From Anaerolineales bacterium (GTDB taxonomy: Bacteria; Chloroflexota; Anaerolineae; Aggregatilineales; UBA2796), in NCBI GenBank assembly GCA_015075625.1, contig JABTTZ010000001.1, positions 930,001 through 994,000 on the forward strand: 64,000 nucleotides of DNA, written 5' to 3'. The position numbers and the translations under genes were made by a program. Of the stretch, positions 1,973 to 59,401 are shown one piece after another (position 1 is the first letter of the stretch; the number at the start of each line of letters is the position of its first letter). A model generated the notes under the pieces. It was not told the origin of the DNA, did not search any database, and was given only the letters and a program-made list of their open reading frames with translations.

Positions 1973-3808
1973 ATGGCACAACGAACCAGACGGCGGCGGC
2001 GCAACGCGTCGCAAACCGAGAACGACAAGGATAAGAACGAAAATCTTCCCCCGCCGATCCCGCGTGGATCGATCAACTGGCGGCGGTTATTCGCCTACCT
2101 CAGTCCCTTCAAGGCACGCTTGGGCTTCACCTTTTTGGCGCTGTTCATTGCCAACGGGATTGGGTTGGTGTTTCCGTTGGTGATCATCCGCCTGTTGGAG
2201 GCGGCGGCACAAGCCAGCGACGGCATGGCGACGCTGAATATGCTGGCGCTTGGCTTGATCGGGCTGTTCGCCTTGCAAGCGGTGTTCAGCTTCTTCCAAA
2301 ACTTCAACCTCAGCTATATTGGCGAAAAGATCGTCCTGAACATGCGAACGGCGCTTTATGACCACCTGACGCGCCTCTCGCTGACCTTTTACGAGAACCG
2401 CAAGGTGGGCGAACTGATCTCGCGCATCTCGAACGATGTCACCCTTGTTCGTTCGCTGCTGACCAGCGAGATCATCTCGGTGATTACCCAAGTGATCTCC
2501 CTTGTGGGGTCGGTTGTTATCGTCTTGTTCCTGAACACCTCGCTGACCGTGTTCATCTTGATTTTGATCCCGCTCATTTTGGTGGTTGCCTTCGTCTTTG
2601 GGACGCCGCTGGAGCGCTTTAGCACGAAGATTCAAGACGAAATCGCCGGGGCGACGGGCATTGCTGATGAAGGCTTGCAACTTGTGCGCATTGTCAAGAG
2701 CTTCGCCCGCGAGCGCTATGAAAGCCAACGCTACGAAACAGCGATGAAAAAGGGCTTTCAGGCATCCATTCGGCTGGCGATTTGGCGCGGGATGTTTGGG
2801 GCGCTCATGGCGTTTTTGGGCTTTGGGGCGCTTGGGGCGGTGCTGTGGTTTGGCGGGCGAGAAGTGATCGAAGGGCGGCTGACCCTGCCCGTGATCGCCG
2901 GCTTCCTCGTCTATGGCACGTCCATTGCGGCGGGGATGGGCAGTTTGGCATTTTTCTATTCGTCGTTCCGCACGGCGTTGGGGGCAATCCAGCGCGTCTT
3001 TGAGATCATGGACACCACGCCGACAATCCTTGATGCCCCTGCTGCGAAGGTGCTTCCCTCTGTGGCGGGGCGGATCACCTTCACCGATGTTCAGTTTAGC
3101 TATGACAACCGGACAACGGTTCTCCATGATCTGAATCTGGACATTGCGCCGGGGGAGATCGTCGCCCTTGTTGGACCCAGTGGGGCGGGAAAATCAACGA
3201 TCTTCAACCTGATTCCGCGCTTTTTTGATCCCACCAGCGGGATCGTGACGGTGGATGGGCATGACCTGCGAGGGGTGACTCAACTGAGCCTACGTGGGCA
3301 AATCGGGATCGTCCCCCAAGAGACGCAGCTTTTCAGCGGCTCTGTGCGGGAAAATATTGCCTATGGCAAACTGGACGCCAGTGAGGATGAGATTATAGCG
3401 GCGGCGCGGGCGGCGAACGCCGCAGACTTCATTGAGGCGCTCCCCGATACCTATGACACGGTGGTTGGCGAACGGGGTGTGAAACTGAGCGGCGGGCAGC
3501 GCCAGCGGATTGCCATTGCGCGGGCGATCTTGAAAGACCCCCGTATTCTGCTCTTGGACGAGGCGACCAGCGCGCTAGACAGCGAATCGGAGGAGGCTGT
3601 TCAAGAAGCGTTGGAACGGCTGATGCAGAACCGGACGACGGTGATCATCGCCCATCGCCTCAGCACAATCAAGATTGCCCACCGAATCGTTGTTTTGGAT
3701 CAGGGGCGGATTGTCGAACTTGGCACACACGATGACCTCATGGCGCTGAACGGACTCTATGCTAGACTGTACACGATGCAGTTCCGCGACATCGAGATGG
3801 GCATGTAA
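1973..3808 (+). CDS. ABC exporter half-transporter (MsbA/MdlB type)
   Basis: This 611-residue protein fuses one six-helix exporter membrane domain (about residues 40-330) to one ATPase domain (about 365-600) and should work as a homodimer that expels lipids, drugs or peptides. The ATPase shows Walker A GPSGAGKST, signature LSGGQRQR, Walker B ILLLDEATSALD and the H-loop in AHRLST. The N-terminal 35 residues are very basic and Arg-rich, then acidic, and cytosolic. The ATG at 1973 follows GAGGGG 12 bases upstream. An in-frame extension to 1814 is rejected as it has no ribosome site and reads through the palindrome at 1802. The propeller gene at 3835 starts 26 bases downstream, suggesting an operon. 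The substrate is unknown. Confidence 0.9.
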   Translation: MAQRTRRRRRNASQTENDKDKNENLPPPIPRGSINWRRLFAYLSPFKARLGFTFLALFIANGIGLVFPLVIIRLLEAAAQASDGMATLNMLALGLIGLFALQAVFSFFQNFNLSYIGEKIVLNMRTALYDHLTRLSLTFYENRKVGELISRISNDVTLVRSLLTSEIISVITQVISLVGSVVIVLFLNTSLTVFILILIPLILVVAFVFGTPLERFSTKIQDEIAGATGIADEGLQLVRIVKSFARERYESQRYETAMKKGFQASIRLAIWRGMFGALMAFLGFGALGAVLWFGGREVIEGRLTLPVIAGFLVYGTSIAAGMGSLAFFYSSFRTALGAIQRVFEIMDTTPTILDAPAAKVLPSVAGRITFTDVQFSYDNRTTVLHDLNLDIAPGEIVALVGPSGAGKSTIFNLIPRFFDPTSGIVTVDGHDLRGVTQLSLRGQIGIVPQETQLFSGSVRENIAYGKLDASEDEIIAAARAANAADFIEALPDTYDTVVGERGVKLSGGQRQRIAIARAILKDPRILLLDEATSALDSESEEAVQEALERLMQNRTTVIIAHRLSTIKIAHRIVVLDQGRIVELGTHDDLMALNGLYARLYTMQFRDIEMGM

Positions 3809-5197: not shown

Positions 5198-5959
5198 CTA
5201 GCCCATCCCTTGCAGCGCCTTGACGATTACTGTAAACAACTGCGCATCGATCTGATCCGGTTGGTTTTCACCCTGATAGTACTGATCGGCAATGCCCACC
5301 TGAAGCCGCCAATAGCGTTCTGTCAGGGTGATCTCCCGAATATCGCTCAGTTTGTGCGACCAGTCTCGGCGCTGCCCCAAGAGGTGAATTTTTTTATCGG
5401 TCAGAAAGACGATCCCGCTGTCCATGATGCTTTCGCCCGTTTTCGATGCCTGTCCGATGATTGCCGTCGGGTATTCGACATAGACGAACTCATCGGGACT
5501 CATCAGTGGCGGAGGTGGGTCGCGCTGTTCCGGTTGAAGAAAACTGAGATCGCCCGCCTCTGCCTGCTGTACGCGCCGCCGTTGAACATAGGCGCGGCGG
5601 CTGATTGCCAATGCCTCATCTTCCACCAGCCAACCCGCCCCGCCGAGGTAGATAGACGCATAATAGTAGCGCTGGTGGCGGCTCGTCTTTTTGTAGCGAA
5701 TGCGCCAACCCTGTCCCCCTTCGCCTGCCGCGTCAAAAAGCGCCGCCGCCCCACACGCCCGACAGGTGATTGTTGGCAACCCCGACCCCAAGCCAAAAAC
5801 CTTTCGCCCCTCGGTGAGGGTGATTGTCCCTTCTTCGCCACAGAACAAGCACCCTAAGAGCGGCGCGGGCTGCTCCGAGGGCGGCACGGCGGGCGGCGCC
5901 TGTCGTGAAGGAGGCGGGGTAAGGGGAAGATCGTCGGGGTCGGGTGGGTAATCGGTCAT
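5198..5959 (-). CDS. Zinc-ribbon plus PH/GRAM-like protein, coupled to trpS
   Basis: The 253-residue product has a proline-rich N-terminus (about 30 residues). Next comes a probable zinc ribbon built from two Cys-x-x-Cys knuckles (CLFCGEEG and CRACGA, about 25 residues apart). The C-terminal half contains GIVFLTDKKIHLL, which resembles the strand pattern of bacterial PH/GRAM domains. There is no signal peptide or membrane helix. The start codon overlaps the trpS stop by four bases (ATGA), so it is the second gene of a trpS operon and probably translationally coupled. I do not recognise a named family. A cytosolic lipid- or protein-binding role is possible. Confidence 0.65.
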   Translation of the reverse strand: MTDYPPDPDDLPLTPPPSRQAPPAVPPSEQPAPLLGCLFCGEEGTITLTEGRKVFGLGSGLPTITCRACGAAALFDAAGEGGQGWRIRYKKTSRHQRYYYASIYLGGAGWLVEDEALAISRRAYVQRRRVQQAEAGDLSFLQPEQRDPPPPLMSPDEFVYVEYPTAIIGQASKTGESIMDSGIVFLTDKKIHLLGQRRDWSHKLSDIREITLTERYWRLQVGIADQYYQGENQPDQIDAQLFTVIVKALQGMG

Positions 5960-6987
5960 GTTGCTGCCAGCGGGGGAAGGAAGCCCACGCGCTCTTTCAC
6001 GTGTTTCAGGGTTTGCCCGGCAACCTCGTTGGCACGATCTGCGCCTTGTTTCAGCACCTCGTCAATGTAACCGCCTTCGCCAGTGAGCGCCTCGTACTTT
6101 GCCTGAATCGAGCGCAGCCCCTCTACAACAACCTCGGCAACAGCCTTCTTCAGATCGCCATACCCTTTTCCGGCAAAGTGCGCCTCAATCGCCTCGCTGC
6201 TCTCGCCAGTGAACGCTTGATAGATGCCCAAAAGGTTGTTCACGCCGGCTTTTTCATCGTCCGTGCTGAAATAAATCCCCGAACCAGAGTCCGTCACTGC
6301 CCGCATGATTTTCTTTCGCGCCTTGTCCGGCGGGTCAAGGAGGTAAACGGCGTGATTCTCGCTCGCCTCACTCTTACTCATCTTCATCAGGGGGTTATCC
6401 AAGCCCATAATCCGCGCCCCGGCTTTGGGAATAAACCCCGATGGGATGGTGAACGTTTCCCCGTACAGGCTGTTGAAGCGCTGCGCTAAATCACGGGTCA
6501 ATTCGATATGTTGGCGTTGATCATCGCCAACGGGAACCAGATTGGCGTGGTAAATGAGAATATCCGCCGCCATGAGGACAGGATAGGTGAATAATCCCGA
6601 TCCGACTGAATCGGCTTGCAACTTCGCCGCTTTGTCTTTGAATTGGGTCATGCGGTTCAGCCAACCCATTGGCGTGAACGTACCAAGAATCCAGCTTAGC
6701 TCGCTGTGTGCTGGAACGTGCGATTGGACAAAGACGGTGCTGTATTTCGTATCTAACCCACATGCCAGAAAGAGCGCCGCATTACGGCGCGTCCCCTCGC
6801 GCAGGGCGGCGGGGTCTTGTTGAACGGTGATCGCATGAAGATCGACAATGCAGTAAAAGGAGTCGTATTGGTCTTGCAGTTGCGCCCATTGCTTCAGCGC
6901 CCCCAAATAGTTCCCAATGGTCAGGTTGCCAGAGGGTTGAATCCCAGAGAGGATGCGCGGTGGACGCGGTGCTTTTGCTTCAGTCAT
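5956..6987 (-). CDS. trpS: Tryptophanyl-tRNA synthetase
   Basis: This 343-residue class I aminoacyl-tRNA synthetase charges tRNA-Trp. The HIGH-equivalent motif is in PSGNLTIGNYLGA near the N-terminus and the KMSKS loop is MKMSKSEASEN near residue 195. Length and the FTYPVLMAADILIY segment are typical of bacterial TrpRS. The ATG at 6987 is preceded only by a weak AAAGAG. On its own strand TACAAT lies about 45 bases upstream, without a good -35 box. It leads a two-gene operon with the zinc-ribbon/PH gene, whose start overlaps this stop. Confidence 0.97.
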   Translation of the reverse strand: MTEAKAPRPPRILSGIQPSGNLTIGNYLGALKQWAQLQDQYDSFYCIVDLHAITVQQDPAALREGTRRNAALFLACGLDTKYSTVFVQSHVPAHSELSWILGTFTPMGWLNRMTQFKDKAAKLQADSVGSGLFTYPVLMAADILIYHANLVPVGDDQRQHIELTRDLAQRFNSLYGETFTIPSGFIPKAGARIMGLDNPLMKMSKSEASENHAVYLLDPPDKARKKIMRAVTDSGSGIYFSTDDEKAGVNNLLGIYQAFTGESSEAIEAHFAGKGYGDLKKAVAEVVVEGLRSIQAKYEALTGEGGYIDEVLKQGADRANEVAGQTLKHVKERVGFLPPLAAT

Positions 6988-54344: not shown

Positions 54345-54521
54345 GGATAAGCAGACACAGCCACAGATTACAGCGCGGGACGCCCCGCAACCCAAACCCA
54401 TGATGATCCTTGCGCGGGGCATTTGGTGACCCCGCGTGAACACCGCTTTAGGCATTGCCACACACCGAGAGGACGCGGGGGAAAGTTTGTTTTTGGTTCG
54501 CTGCAAGACACAAGGTACACA

Positions 54522-55370
54522 TTGATACGCTTACGACTCAGCGGGGCGAAACGCTCGCTGGTGGTGTTGTCGCTGGCGCTGGCGGGCTGTGGTACGCCGC
54601 TGCCTGCCAGCAACCCGACCCCCGAAGCGTATACCTTGCGCCTGATTACCGATAACGCCAGCGCCCCGCTGCTCTACGATTTAGTGAGCGCCTATACCTC
54701 CACCCGCGCCCTGATCGTCTGGGATATTCAGGTCAGTGACGGGGCGGCGGTGGCGGATTGGCTACAGGCAGGGCGTGCGCCTTACGCCTTTTGGGGAATG
54801 TTGCCCGATGCCGTCAACAATGCCCCCGATTATTGGTTAGCGCCGGTGGGTATTGGCGGGGTTGCCTTTGTCGTCCACCCAACAAACACGGTTAGCGATC
54901 TGTCCCCCGATCAGGTGCGCAATATTTTGAGTGGGCGCATTGTGAATTGGGCGGAACTGGGCGGAGCAGATCGTCCGATTGTGGTTGTGGCGCGGGGGGA
55001 GAGCAGCACAGAGGGGCAGCTTGTCCAGCGCATTGTCCTCGGTGATAGACGGATTCGCCCTGATGCACGCTTGGCGCTGACGGGCAAGGCGCTAATCGAC
55101 CTTGTGGCGGAAGAACCCGGCGCGGCGGGCTTTGTCTCGGTGGGCTATCTTTCTTCGGCGGTGCGCCCACTGGCATTGGAAGGAATCCCCCCTACGCCGC
55201 AGACGCTTGGCGAGGAAACCTATCCACTCCGCTCGCCCATTGTTATTGCCGGATTGGAAGCCCCCGGCGACGACGCCTACCGCGCTTTTTTCGCCTGGGT
55301 ACAAAGTCCGGCAGGGCAAGCGGTTGTCCAAGCGCAGCATGGTGGTATTCCGGCAGTGGAACGCCCGTAA
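54522..55370 (+). CDS. PstS-like substrate-binding lipoprotein
   Basis: The 282-residue product is a lipoprotein with lipobox LAGC near residue 20. It belongs to the PBP-like group of phosphate-binding PstS proteins: SDLSPDQVRNILSGRIVNWAELGG is spread over the typical hinge region (broken here by VRN) and PIVVVARGESS is the anion loop. No pst permease genes are near. TTG at 54522 is chosen because AAGGT is five bases upstream and it yields a compact lipoprotein signal; an upstream frame to 54423 has no ribosome site. It could serve a transporter elsewhere; a link to the permease at 57701 is possible but that transporter type normally uses another binding-protein family. Confidence 0.75.
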   Translation: MIRLRLSGAKRSLVVLSLALAGCGTPLPASNPTPEAYTLRLITDNASAPLLYDLVSAYTSTRALIVWDIQVSDGAAVADWLQAGRAPYAFWGMLPDAVNNAPDYWLAPVGIGGVAFVVHPTNTVSDLSPDQVRNILSGRIVNWAELGGADRPIVVVARGESSTEGQLVQRIVLGDRRIRPDARLALTGKALIDLVAEEPGAAGFVSVGYLSSAVRPLALEGIPPTPQTLGEETYPLRSPIVIAGLEAPGDDAYRAFFAWVQSPAGQAVVQAQHGGIPAVERP

Positions 55371-56024: not shown

Positions 56025-56077
56025 AAATTAGATTTACATCTAATTTGAAGAATATCACAGCAGTCGAAGCCAGTCAA
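56025..56077 (-). promoter_or_regulatory. Promoter and palindromic operator of the ArsR gene
   Basis: On the minus strand TTGACT (56077-56072) and TATTCT (56054-56049) are 17 bases apart. The predicted start, near 56042, lies inside a perfect inverted repeat AAATTAGAT-TTAC-ATCTAATTT (56025-56046). The layout is that of a repressor blocking its own promoter. Confidence 0.75.
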
Positions 56078-56086
56078 GCCGGAAGG

Positions 56087-56116
56087 TTGCCCTTTAAGGC
56101 TGTCTTGCGCTATTGT
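56087..56116 (+). promoter_or_regulatory. Promoter of the EthD-ABC-MenA operon
   Basis: TTGCCC (56087-56092) and TATTGT (56111-56116) are 18 bases apart. The start expected seven bases on is 56123, exactly the ATG of the EthD-like gene, suggesting a leaderless message. Its -35 box lies nine bases from that of the divergent ArsR promoter. Confidence 0.5.
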
Positions 56117-56122
56117 ATGGGC

Positions 56123-56425
56123 ATGGTCAAACTTACCATTCTCTACAAAACCCCAATAAACAGCGCCGTTGATTTTGAGGCGCGTTATATAGGCAACCTT
56201 GCTCTGATGGAAGCGATGCCGGGGATCATGCGCCGGCAGGCGTGCCTCGTTTTGGGCGCTCCCGGTGGGCAATCCCCTTACCATCGGATGCTTGAACTTT
56301 ACTTTTCCGATTTCGAGATGCTCGATCAAGCGCTGCGCTCCCCACAGGGGCAGCGTGCCGGCGCAGATTTGATGAGCTTTGCCAAGGATTCTGAACTGAT
56401 CTTTGCCGAGGTGTGGGAGGAATAA
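56123..56425 (+). CDS. Small EthD-like dimeric alpha/beta-barrel protein
   Basis: The 100-residue product begins MVKLTILYKTP and contains FEARYIGNLALMEAMPGI, the EthD-type ferredoxin-like pattern; members form dimeric barrels that bind small aromatic or hydrophobic ligands, sometimes as monooxygenases or cyclases. No catalytic residue can be assigned. The start ATG at 56123 fits the family and the predicted transcription start; ATG at 56117 and an upstream frame to 56045 are less likely. The stop overlaps the next ATG by one base (TAATG) and its last codons hold the next ribosome site, so it is coupled to the ABC ATPase. Confidence 0.7.
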   Translation: MVKLTILYKTPINSAVDFEARYIGNLALMEAMPGIMRRQACLVLGAPGGQSPYHRMLELYFSDFEMLDQALRSPQGQRAGADLMSFAKDSELIFAEVWEE

Positions 56426-57210
56426 TGAGCGATTCCAGTCCCGTCGCCGCTAAGATCAGCGTGGAGGGCGTTACCATACGCTATGCTGGACGTGCCGGCA
56501 TAGGAGAAGTGACCGCCATTGAAGCCGTTGATCTGACGATTGCGGTGGGCGAATTCGTCGTCATTGTCGGTCCGAGCGGCTGCGGCAAGACGACTCTCTT
56601 ACGTGCCATCGGCGGGCTGCAGGGCGTCCTCAGCGGGCGGATCACCGTCGCCCACAGCGATCCGCAGCGCCCCGCTTCAGCGATGGTCTTTCAGGGGGCG
56701 TCCGTGTTTCCCTGGCTGACGGTGACCGAAAATGTCGCTTATGGGCTGCGAACACGCGGGCTGCCCTATGCCGAACGCATCGAACGGGCGCGGGAGTGGA
56801 TCGGGCGGGTGGGCTTGACGAAATTTGCCGAGGCATACCCCCACCAACTCTCCGGCGGGATGCGCCAGCGCGTTGGCTTGGCGCGGGCGTTTGCCTATGA
56901 TCCCGAAATATTGCTGATGGATGAGCCGTTTGGGGCGCTGGATGCCCAAACACGCCTGATCCTCCAAGAGACATTGCTTATGCTTTGGCAAAGCAGCGGG
57001 GCAACCGTTGTGTTTGTGACGCACAGCATTGATGAGGCGCTCTCGCTGGCGGATCGGGTGGTGATCATGTCGGCGCGTCCGGGGCGAATCATCGGGGAGG
57101 AACAGGTCACCCTTTCCCGCCCGCGCCAGACGGTCAGCCTGCGCCAAGACCCCCAATATGGCACGCTCTTTGGGCGCGTCTGGGCGCGTCTGCGGGACGA
57201 AGTAGGATGA
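56425..57210 (+). CDS. NitT/TauT-type ABC importer ATPase
   Basis: The 261-residue ATPase has Walker A GPSGCGKTT, Q-loop FQGASVFPWLTVTENVAYGL, signature LSGGMRQRVGLARAF, Walker B ILLMDEPFGALD and the H-loop in VTHSIDEAL. The VFPWLTV segment is characteristic of nitrate/taurine/aliphatic-sulfonate importers (SsuB, TauB, NrtD). GGGAGG lies inside the end of the EthD gene. Its membrane partner is the N-terminal half of the fusion protein at 57701. No NMT1-type binding protein is encoded here. Confidence 0.92.
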   Translation: MSDSSPVAAKISVEGVTIRYAGRAGIGEVTAIEAVDLTIAVGEFVVIVGPSGCGKTTLLRAIGGLQGVLSGRITVAHSDPQRPASAMVFQGASVFPWLTVTENVAYGLRTRGLPYAERIERAREWIGRVGLTKFAEAYPHQLSGGMRQRVGLARAFAYDPEILLMDEPFGALDAQTRLILQETLLMLWQSSGATVVFVTHSIDEALSLADRVVIMSARPGRIIGEEQVTLSRPRQTVSLRQDPQYGTLFGRVWARLRDEVG

Positions 57211-57272: not shown

Positions 57273-57701
57273 ATGCAACCCCCTCAACCTATCTATCAAC
57301 AAGAAACCTTGATCGGCGAATGGCGGCGGAGCATGTGGAGCATCGGCTTCTGGCTGCGCGTCGTCGGCACGGCAACGCTCTATTACTGGCTGCTGTGGAA
57401 GAAAAACCAGATCGTCCTCACGGATCGGCGCGTCACACAACGAATGGGCGGCATCCTCGGCGGCAAGGAAATTTCGATCACCATTGCCAATATCACGAAT
57501 GTCGAAATTGACACCCCGCCCCTCGGCGCGATCATGGGCTTTGCCGATATTCGGATCAGTTCGGCGGCGGGTGGGCGCACCGATCAGATCAACTTCAAGA
57601 CGCTCCATCGCCCCGATACCCTGAAAGCGGCAATCTATCGCCAGCAAGACACCATCCGCCGCAGCGCCACCTTTCCCGGACAGGAAGGAACGATGCGCTG
57701 A
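57273..57701 (+). CDS. Bacterial PH-domain (DUF304-like) protein
   Basis: The 142-residue product has a short hydrophobic segment (about residues 24-44) followed by a bPH_2-type domain: NQIVLTDRRVTQRMGGILGG is broken over two strands (only the first 19 quoted residues are contiguous with the domain start), then ITIANITNVEID and GFADIRISSA. Such proteins are membrane-associated and of unknown role. It starts 62 bases after the ATPase and its stop overlaps the start of the permease/MenA gene (TGATG), so it is an integral operon member. Confidence 0.75.
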   Translation: MQPPQPIYQQETLIGEWRRSMWSIGFWLRVVGTATLYYWLLWKKNQIVLTDRRVTQRMGGILGGKEISITIANITNVEIDTPPLGAIMGFADIRISSAAGGRTDQINFKTLHRPDTLKAAIYRQQDTIRRSATFPGQEGTMR

Positions 57702-59401
57702 TGAGTCGTTTACGCCTCAGCCGCCGTTGGCTTTCTGTCCTCTCGCCAGTGGTCGTCCTCCTTCTGTGGGAAGTTCTTGTTCAGTTGGGCGTGCTGAACC
57801 GTCGCTTCTTCCCGCAGCCCTCCCGCATCATCGAGACGCTCTACACCCTTGCCCAAAGCGGGCAGTTGTGGAATGAATTGGGGATCAGCACCCTACGGAT
57901 TATCTCAGGCTTTCTGATCGGCGCACTCCTCGGCATTTTCTTGGGGCTGCTGATTGGGATTAGCCAGACCGCCAGCGCCATCCTCCGCCCGCTGATCACG
58001 GCGATCAATCCGATCCCCAAAATCGCCCTGATTCCCTTCGTCGTTCTCGCCCTGGGCTTCACCGAATGGGCGCGCGTCCTTTCGATGGCGATCAGCGTCA
58101 TGCCGATCATGCTTTTGGACACGGCGGCGGCGGTGGGGCGCATTGATCCGACCTATTTTGAGGTGGCAAAAAGCTACCGTGCCTCGCGGTGGGCGGTGTT
58201 TTGGACGGTGGCACTTCCGGCAAGCCTGCCTAGCATCATGAACAGCGTGAAGTTAGGCTTATCCTATTCCCTAACGTTGATCATCGGCGTTGAACTCTTT
58301 GGCGCACAGCAAGGGATTGGAAAGTTCATCTGGGACAGCGCCAACCTTTATGCGGTGAACAAACTGGGCGCGGGGATTGTTGCCATTGCCATCACTGGCT
58401 GGCTGATCACCGCCCTCATCGACCTGATCACGCCGAGCCTGATCCCCTGGCAGCCGCGCCCGGTGGAGGCAGCCTTAGAGGAATCGCCTGTTCAACGCGC
58501 CCTGCGCATTTGGTGGCGTGCCGCCCGCCCCTGGAGCTATACCGCCGCCACCGTCCCCGCCCTTTTGGGGACGGTCATCGCCGCTTATCAGGGGCATTTC
58601 AACCTTGCCCATGCGGTGCTTGTCGTCGTTGGGTCGGTGGCGCTCCAAGCGGGGACGAACCTGATCAACGATTACTACGATCACCGCAAGGGCGCCGATA
58701 CCGAGAAATCACTGGGCGTTGGCGGGGCGATTCAACGCGGCGAACTAACTCCCCGTCAGGTGTTTTGGGGAGGCATTGCCGCCTTTGGTCTAGGATCGCT
58801 CATCGGGTTGTATTTCGTCAGCCAATATGGAGCGTTCATCCTCGCCTTGGGACTGCTCAGCGTCCTTGCTGGTTTTTTCTACACCGCCGGACCCTCCGCA
58901 TTGGCGTACATTGGCTTGGGCGAGATTACCGTGTTCGTCTTTATGGGACCGGTGATTGTTGTAGGGGCATATGTCGTGCAGGCGGGGCAGATTAGTTGGG
59001 AGGCGCTGATCGCCTCGCTACCCATTGGCTTTTTGGTTGCCGCTATTCTCCATGCCAACAACCTCCGTGATCTTGAGCAGGATCGGGCGATTGGCAAACG
59101 CACCCTAGCCACGATCTTGGGGCGGGAGCGGGCGACTATCGAATATTACATCCTTGTCGGGGGGACGTATGTGGCGCTGGCGATCAGTGTCCTTGTTGGC
59201 GGCGCCCCCCTTTCGGCGCTTTTAGGGATGCTCACCTTGCCGATGGCGTGGGGGCTGATGCAGCGCGTCTCGGTGACGAGTGAACCCGCCGCCCTGAACC
59301 CCATTTTGCGCAAGACGGCGCAGCTTCACGCTCGCTTTGGGATGCTGCTGGTCGGCGGGTGGCTGATCGCACTCTGTTTAGCGCTGCTGAACAAGAGCTA
59401 A
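57701..59401 (+). CDS. Fusion of NitT/TauT-type ABC permease and MenA/UbiA prenyltransferase
   Basis: One 566-residue frame encodes two enzymes. Residues 1 to about 262 are a complete ABC importer permease with six helices and the ATPase-contact loop FEVAKSYRASRWAVFW followed by TVALPASLPSIM. After a linker (PWQPRPVEAALEESPVQRA) residues about 275-566 are a UbiA-superfamily prenyltransferase with both Asp-rich sites: NDYYDHRKGAD at 323-333 and NNLRDLEQDRAIGKRTLA from 453, as in MenA, which joins dihydroxynaphthoate to a polyprenyl chain for menaquinone. No stop or start interrupts the junction. The ATG overlaps the upstream stop. The fusion suggests uptake coupled to prenylation. Confidence 0.9.
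   Translation: MSRLRLSRRWLSVLSPVVVLLLWEVLVQLGVLNRRFFPQPSRIIETLYTLAQSGQLWNELGISTLRIISGFLIGALLGIFLGLLIGISQTASAILRPLITAINPIPKIALIPFVVLALGFTEWARVLSMAISVMPIMLLDTAAAVGRIDPTYFEVAKSYRASRWAVFWTVALPASLPSIMNSVKLGLSYSLTLIIGVELFGAQQGIGKFIWDSANLYAVNKLGAGIVAIAITGWLITALIDLITPSLIPWQPRPVEAALEESPVQRALRIWWRAARPWSYTAATVPALLGTVIAAYQGHFNLAHAVLVVVGSVALQAGTNLINDYYDHRKGADTEKSLGVGGAIQRGELTPRQVFWGGIAAFGLGSLIGLYFVSQYGAFILALGLLSVLAGFFYTAGPSALAYIGLGEITVFVFMGPVIVVGAYVVQAGQISWEALIASLPIGFLVAAILHANNLRDLEQDRAIGKRTLATILGRERATIEYYILVGGTYVALAISVLVGGAPLSALLGMLTLPMAWGLMQRVSVTSEPAALNPILRKTAQLHARFGMLLVGGWLIALCLALLNKS

Follow-up and report, generated by a model that had tools for sequence, protein, structure and literature searches.

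Why should the permease of an ABC importer be joined, in one protein, to an enzyme of menaquinone synthesis? The question is raised by a gene in the window, a 64,000-nucleotide stretch of an Anaerolineales genome (contig JABTTZ010000001.1, positions 930,001 to 994,000), which a first-pass annotation made from the letters of the DNA had described as a complete NitT/TauT-type permease running in a single frame into a MenA-type prenyltransferase with both Asp-rich motifs. To our knowledge, no characterised member of the NitT/TauT importers carries a prenyltransferase. A literature search of open-access papers found neither a description of a permease-UbiA fusion nor an importer of 1,4-dihydroxy-2-naphthoate (DHNA), including one with a binding protein, and a Phototrophicus paper contained no useful information about quinones.

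The fusion gene and its protein

The frame begins with ATG, ends with TAA and contains no internal stop codon, and profile searches recover both domains in its 566-residue product, so the architecture described in the annotation holds. With hmmscan against Pfam, BPD_transp_1 matches residues 78-245 (E 2.7e-21; 76.5 bits against a cut-off of 26.4) and UbiA matches residues 285-527 (E 1.8e-39). The UbiA half scores 172.3 bits with the NCBIfam menA model TIGR00751, for which the curated cut-off is 102.15, and the fusions at L115 and L119 likewise exceed that cut-off. The permease half resembles SsuC/TauC/NtrB and, among the matches listed, falls below each curated substrate-specific permease cut-off. 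Its EAA loop is the coupling helix through which such a permease contacts the ATPase. The features of the locus are collected in Table 1.

Table 1. Features of the fusion gene and the genes preceding it, in window coordinates
Feature	Coordinates	Strand	Basis
EthD-family protein preceding the ATPase; actual start probably internal	56045..56425	+	profile search
ABC ATPase, NitT/TauT (SsuB/TauB) type, partner of the permease half	56413..57210	+	profile search, neighbourhood
Small bacterial PH-domain protein between ATPase and fusion	57273..57701	+	profile search
Fusion gene, 566 aa: NitT/TauT-type ABC permease and MenA-type prenyltransferase	57701..59401	+	ORF, profile search
Permease half, aa 1-250, six predicted TM helices; best structural matches CmpB/NrtB, Z about 23	57701..58450	+	
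EAA loop of the permease, aa 154-177	58160..58231	+	sequence inspection; conserved in homologues
Linker, aa 251-263, low model confidence	58451..58489	+	AlphaFold model
Prenyltransferase half of the MenA type, aa 264-566; top structural match, human UBIAD1 (8djk, Z 25.3)	58490..59398	+	
First Asp-rich motif NLINDYYDHRKGAD, aa 320-333	58658..58699	+	alignment
Second Asp-rich motif NNLRDLEQDRAIGK, aa 453-466	59057..59098	+	alignment

The second Asp-rich motif reads NNLRDLxxDxxxGKRT over residues 453-468, and in an alignment of 34 fused homologues N320, N323, D327, D333, N453, N454, R456, D457, D461 and K466 are invariant. The AlphaFold model of the fusion (mean pLDDT 84.8, pTM 0.67) shows two helical domains separated by a poorly ordered linker near residues 251-262, and its permease half matches CmpB and NrtB with Z scores of about 21-23. 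The stretch corresponding to the linker comprises 12-25 residues in homologues and varies in length. The positive-inside pattern predicts a cytoplasmic location for the C-terminus of the permease, for the linker and for the two Asp motifs, so the catalytic site of MenA would lie on the side where the importer releases its cargo. The MenA half is predicted to act as a DHNA polyprenyltransferase, prenylating and decarboxylating its substrate, and the permease half together with the ATPase is predicted to perform ATP-driven import of a solute.

Distribution and origin of the fusion

The annotation had been concerned that a sequencing or assembly artefact might have joined two genes, and that close relatives might always carry them separately. 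Among 298 genomes sampled from this class, 12 others have a full-length fusion, at 45-53% identity. A scan of GTDB contigs with the permease-half alignment detected 36 more carriers, two of which are cut by a contig end, in Anaerolineae, Caldilineaceae, Roseilinea/Thermoflexales, Chloroflexaceae, Roseiflexaceae, Herpetosiphonaceae and Thermoflexus. The same domain order thus recurs in 48 further Chloroflexota genomes, at 44-77% identity, giving 49 carriers, which rules out a frameshift or a chimera. Nothing was found in favour of an artefact. The fusion is shared by 49 genomes, its linker differs in length among them and its copies have one origin; this refutes the artefact, to which we give a negligible probability. 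Split versions and versions without the MenA domain are rare, with one example of each described below.

Trees of the two halves were then compared. In a tree including stand-alone MenAs, 24 fused MenA halves form one clade (support 100/95), and the stand-alone MenAs, including the second MenA of the window genome, fall outside it. The fused permeases cluster as well, and two unfused permeases fall within this cluster or at its base. One of these, from Thermomicrobiales (L105), is accompanied by a separate, overlapping MenA gene. The other, from AL-N1 (L079, 7950-8828), has no MenA domain and occurs with an SBP and an ATPase in a genome that is positive for MenD and MenB. The pairwise distances of the permease and MenA halves correlate (r = 0.81). 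The single MenA clade, the grouping of the permeases and this correlation point to one fusion event followed by long co-inheritance of the halves.

Importer partners and gene neighbourhood

The order SBP-ATPase-fusion is found in about 29 of the 49 carriers. An ATPase adjoins the fusion in most relatives, and the ATPase of the window is about 48-75% identical to these fusion-adjacent proteins. The SBPs next to the fusion are of the NMT1/NrtA type, and most have a lipobox-like cysteine. The structural model of the SBP from Thermoflexus hugenholtzii matches CmpA, NrtA and SsuA with Z scores of 28-30, and PqqT and MqnD more weakly. In the window genome, the ATPase of the fusion is adjacent, and an NMT1/NrtA-type SBP is unlinked and stands alone on contig 3 (L162; L279:7415-8488), where its contig coordinates are given as 704504-705451. 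An SBP of the family was present in all 14 genomes tested. Several genomes of family f9 with a lone fusion have an SBP-ATPase pair elsewhere (L156-L161), and no permease of the fusion's family was found in the flanking stretch examined around these pairs.

A PstS-like SBP is encoded in the window at 54423-55370 and was considered as the missing binding protein. This assignment is unlikely, as the protein is of the PBP_like_2/PstS type, no homologue was found at the related loci compared, and the NMT1-type SBP of the right family lies on contig 3. Its gene is split from the importer genes by an opposite-strand ArsR-DUF2087 gene, and no phosphate transporter genes were seen beside it.

The stop codon of the PH-domain gene overlaps the ATG of the fusion (TGATG). 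No homologue of the PH-domain protein was found beside the fusion in the other genomes examined, which makes its role doubtful. The EthD-family gene heads the gene row both in the window and in the nearest relative (L071). In the fused system of another genome (G153, L038:9841-10584), a glyoxalase/dioxygenase-superfamily (VOC) protein is encoded between the SBP and the ATPase.

Menaquinone pathway genes in the carriers

MenD was used as the marker of the classical route and PF02621 (MqnA/MqnD) as that of the futalosine route, with the family cut-offs applied. Profile searches of the window genome (4.68 Mb, 98.5% complete) found no MenD or MenB over the cut-offs and no PF02621. The same genome keeps a second, stand-alone MenA, MenG and the complex I subunit NuoD.

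Both MenD and PF02621 are absent in 44 of the 49 carriers. MenD exceeds its cut-off in three carriers, two of which are also the carriers with MenB; PF02621 occurs in two, one match being a fragment at a contig end, and one carrier is counted as having MqnA/MqnD. MenG and NuoD are kept in nearly all 49. As a control, the same searches of the 298 class genomes detected MenD in 71 and PF02621 in 38, so the profiles work in this group.

Among the MenA-bearing genomes of the class sample, MenD is present in 0/13 carriers and 51/120 non-carriers (p = 0.0017, shared ancestry ignored); for the fusion against the union of MenD and Mqn, the value is p = 0.015, again with shared ancestry ignored. This absence argument is weak by itself, because 68 non-fused genomes with MenA also lack both routes. 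In genus g125, G172 has the fusion and lacks MenD and MenB; G185 and G248 have MenD and MenB and lack the fusion. Besides the fusion, at least 11 of the 13 carriers sampled, the window genome among them, have a stand-alone MenA, so the fusion is not needed merely for prenylation. The stand-alone enzyme may serve DHNA that enters the cell otherwise, or one of the two MenAs may take a different head.

A second importer beside MenA

Because so many non-carriers with MenA lack both routes, we surveyed, as an independent test, the genes around the best MenA in each of the 120 non-carriers that have this enzyme. In 12 of the 120, one or more components of a second NitT-type importer (SBP, ATPase or permease) are encoded within about 5 kb of MenA (L050, L171, L172, L178, L186, L187, L229, L235, L256, L257, L261 and, with SBPs only, L188). 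In the tree, the permeases of this second importer are far from the fused clade. MenD and PF02621 are absent in all 12 of these genomes, and a MenA-adjoining importer was found in 0/52 pathway-positive genomes (p = 0.0011, shared ancestry ignored). This unfused system is a candidate quinone-head importer in its own right.

At L050, L171 and L172, the genes run SBP-ATPase-permease-MenA on one strand. At most of the other loci, the importer stands tail to tail with MenA, which is a neighbourhood and not an operon. L261 contains a highly divergent UbiA gene (2447-3370) between the SBP and the ATPase, with a normal MenA next door. One locus (L034/L050, G062) was considered as a fusion with a TGA and was rejected, since it is the second, unfused system with the permease and MenA as separate genes.

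When both arrangements are taken together, MenD is found in 0/25 genomes with MenA fused to or beside an importer, compared with 51/108 otherwise (p = 1e-6, shared ancestry ignored). The trend holds within families f9 (p = 0.014) and f32 (p = 0.045), also with shared ancestry ignored. The genomes in these class-wide counts are not independent samples. In addition, 56 MenA-bearing genomes have neither pathway and show no importer gene within about 5 kb of MenA. The lack of upstream genes is therefore no proof of import by itself, and a third, unrecognised naphthoate pathway is possible. Three genomes of one f9 genus (G275, G099 and G238; L055, L058 and L060) have MenA and neither pathway, and lack both the fusion and a MenA-adjoining importer. 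A different fusion, in which a luciferase-like monooxygenase is followed by a MenA-type UbiA domain, occurs in three genomes from two families of the class (L173:4810-6861, L174:2986-5028 and L175:4916-6940).

Exchange of men genes for an importer in related genomes

The gene order around MenA was compared between members of the same genus. In genus g100, the MenD-positive genome G130 (L246) has MenG-MenA-MenH-DAHP synthase-MenE-MenB, in which the DAHP synthase was named by eye from its sequence. The MenD-negative genome G280 (L257) has MenG-MenA-permease-ATPase-SBP, with the same outer flank. The two loci share 94% identity in MenG, 80% in MenA and 89% in the flanking IleRS. In g40, G179 (L228) has MenB-MenE-DAHP synthase-MenH-MenA-MenG and G061 (L235) has MenG-MenA-importer, an arrangement around MenA and MenG like that of the g100 swap. 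The genes swapped out make DHNA and those retained use it, which is the strongest pointer to DHNA as the likely cargo. This exchange concerns the second importer, and by analogy it may extend to the fused one.

Proposed function and alternatives

The fused system is probably a salvage route for the menaquinone head, in which DHNA or a close relative of it is taken up and then prenylated at the membrane. In such a mechanism, the NMT1/NrtA-type SBP would catch the compound outside the cell, and a pair of fusion proteins with a pair of ATPase subunits would form the importer. The cargo would be released into the cytoplasm beside the tethered MenA half, which would prenylate the head group, and the product would be trapped in the membrane as demethylmenaquinone. 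Methylation by MenG, encoded elsewhere in the genome, would then yield menaquinone for use by complex I and the other parts of the respiratory chain. With the enzyme tethered in this way, a compound that is scarce and reactive could be captured rather than lost.

The first-pass annotation had likewise proposed that a scavenged aromatic head, for example a naphthoate, is imported and prenylated at the membrane. This reading is supported in part and has the best support of those considered: the window genome and most carriers have no MenD, MenB or MqnA/MqnD but keep MenG and complex I, and a second NitT-type importer takes the place of men genes beside MenA in relatives. The AL-N1 genome, which has MenD and MenB and a permease of the fused clade with no MenA domain, also speaks in its favour. 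These features, like the conservation of the fusion in one clade and its importer partners, are read directly from the genomes. The substrate, the direction of transport, the subunit stoichiometry and any direct hand-over from permease to prenyltransferase are what we infer from them. A stronger version, which we put forward tentatively, is group translocation by prenylation, in which the permease would feed the naphthoate straight to the fused MenA active site and import and trapping would be one process; Chloroflexota would then have evolved importers for quinone-head salvage at least twice, once fused and once unfused.

The MenA half may instead prenylate another aromatic compound or quinone brought in by the importer, such as menadione, an amino-naphthoquinone (for example ACNQ) or a benzenoid acid. 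Its clade is separate from the stand-alone MenAs of the same genomes, which could mean a different acceptor, and its closest solved relative is UBIAD1, an enzyme that prenylates menadione. However, nearly all carriers keep MenG, which an unmethylated product would call for, the MenA half scores above the NCBIfam menA cut-off, and in relatives importers replace the DHNA-forming genes beside MenA-MenG; we therefore consider another cargo rather improbable. It is also possible to suppose that the naphthoate comes from an unrecognised third pathway, that the importer carries an unrelated cargo, and that the fusion is accidental or a mere tether for the prenyltransferase. The 56 MenA-bearing class genomes with neither route nor an adjoining importer are in line with this, as are four carriers that possess upstream genes. 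Nevertheless, the fusion and the distinct second importer both go with missing MenD, also within single genera, and intact fusions have been retained in several groups of Chloroflexota, which makes this explanation very doubtful.

In summary, salvage of the menaquinone head assigns a defined candidate importer (SBP, ATPase and permease) to an enzyme that would use its cargo, the two being tied by fusion and neighbourhood. It predicts that a large part of Chloroflexota, known mostly from metagenomes, relies on neighbours for the head of its respiratory quinone, which becomes a testable growth factor for cultivation. A cultured test case is T. hugenholtzii: a MAG assigned to this species (L115) has the fused system, with its SBP at 5318-6385, and lacks MenD and MqnA/D. 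A NitT/TauT transporter has been reported for T. hugenholtzii, and its optimal growth is reported to need unknown compounds from mat extracts (PMC8129789).

Comparison with known systems

The fused system matches the NitT/TauT importers (NrtBCD, CmpBCD, SsuABC and TauABC) in the permease fold, the EAA loop, the ATPase and the NMT1/NrtA-type SBP. It differs from them in the added prenyltransferase and in a permease that scores below the listed substrate-specific cut-offs. With MenA, a member of the UbiA superfamily like UBIAD1, the fused half shares the TIGR00751 equivalog match, both Asp motifs and the fold; in contrast to MenA, it is part of a transporter subunit and forms a clade apart from the stand-alone enzymes. 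Lactiplantibacillus plantarum and Group B Streptococcus do not have the whole pathway and make use of external DHNA or of quinones supplied by neighbours, and the uptake route in L. plantarum is stated to be unidentified (PMC10746273). In the fused system, by comparison, the enzyme is joined to a candidate importer. PqqT (PDB 9b1u), which binds the soluble quinone PQQ, has the same fold as the SBPs (Z 22.7 with the T. hugenholtzii model) and is an earlier example of a protein that binds an aromatic quinone cofactor, although the identity is 15% and PQQ is used unprenylated.
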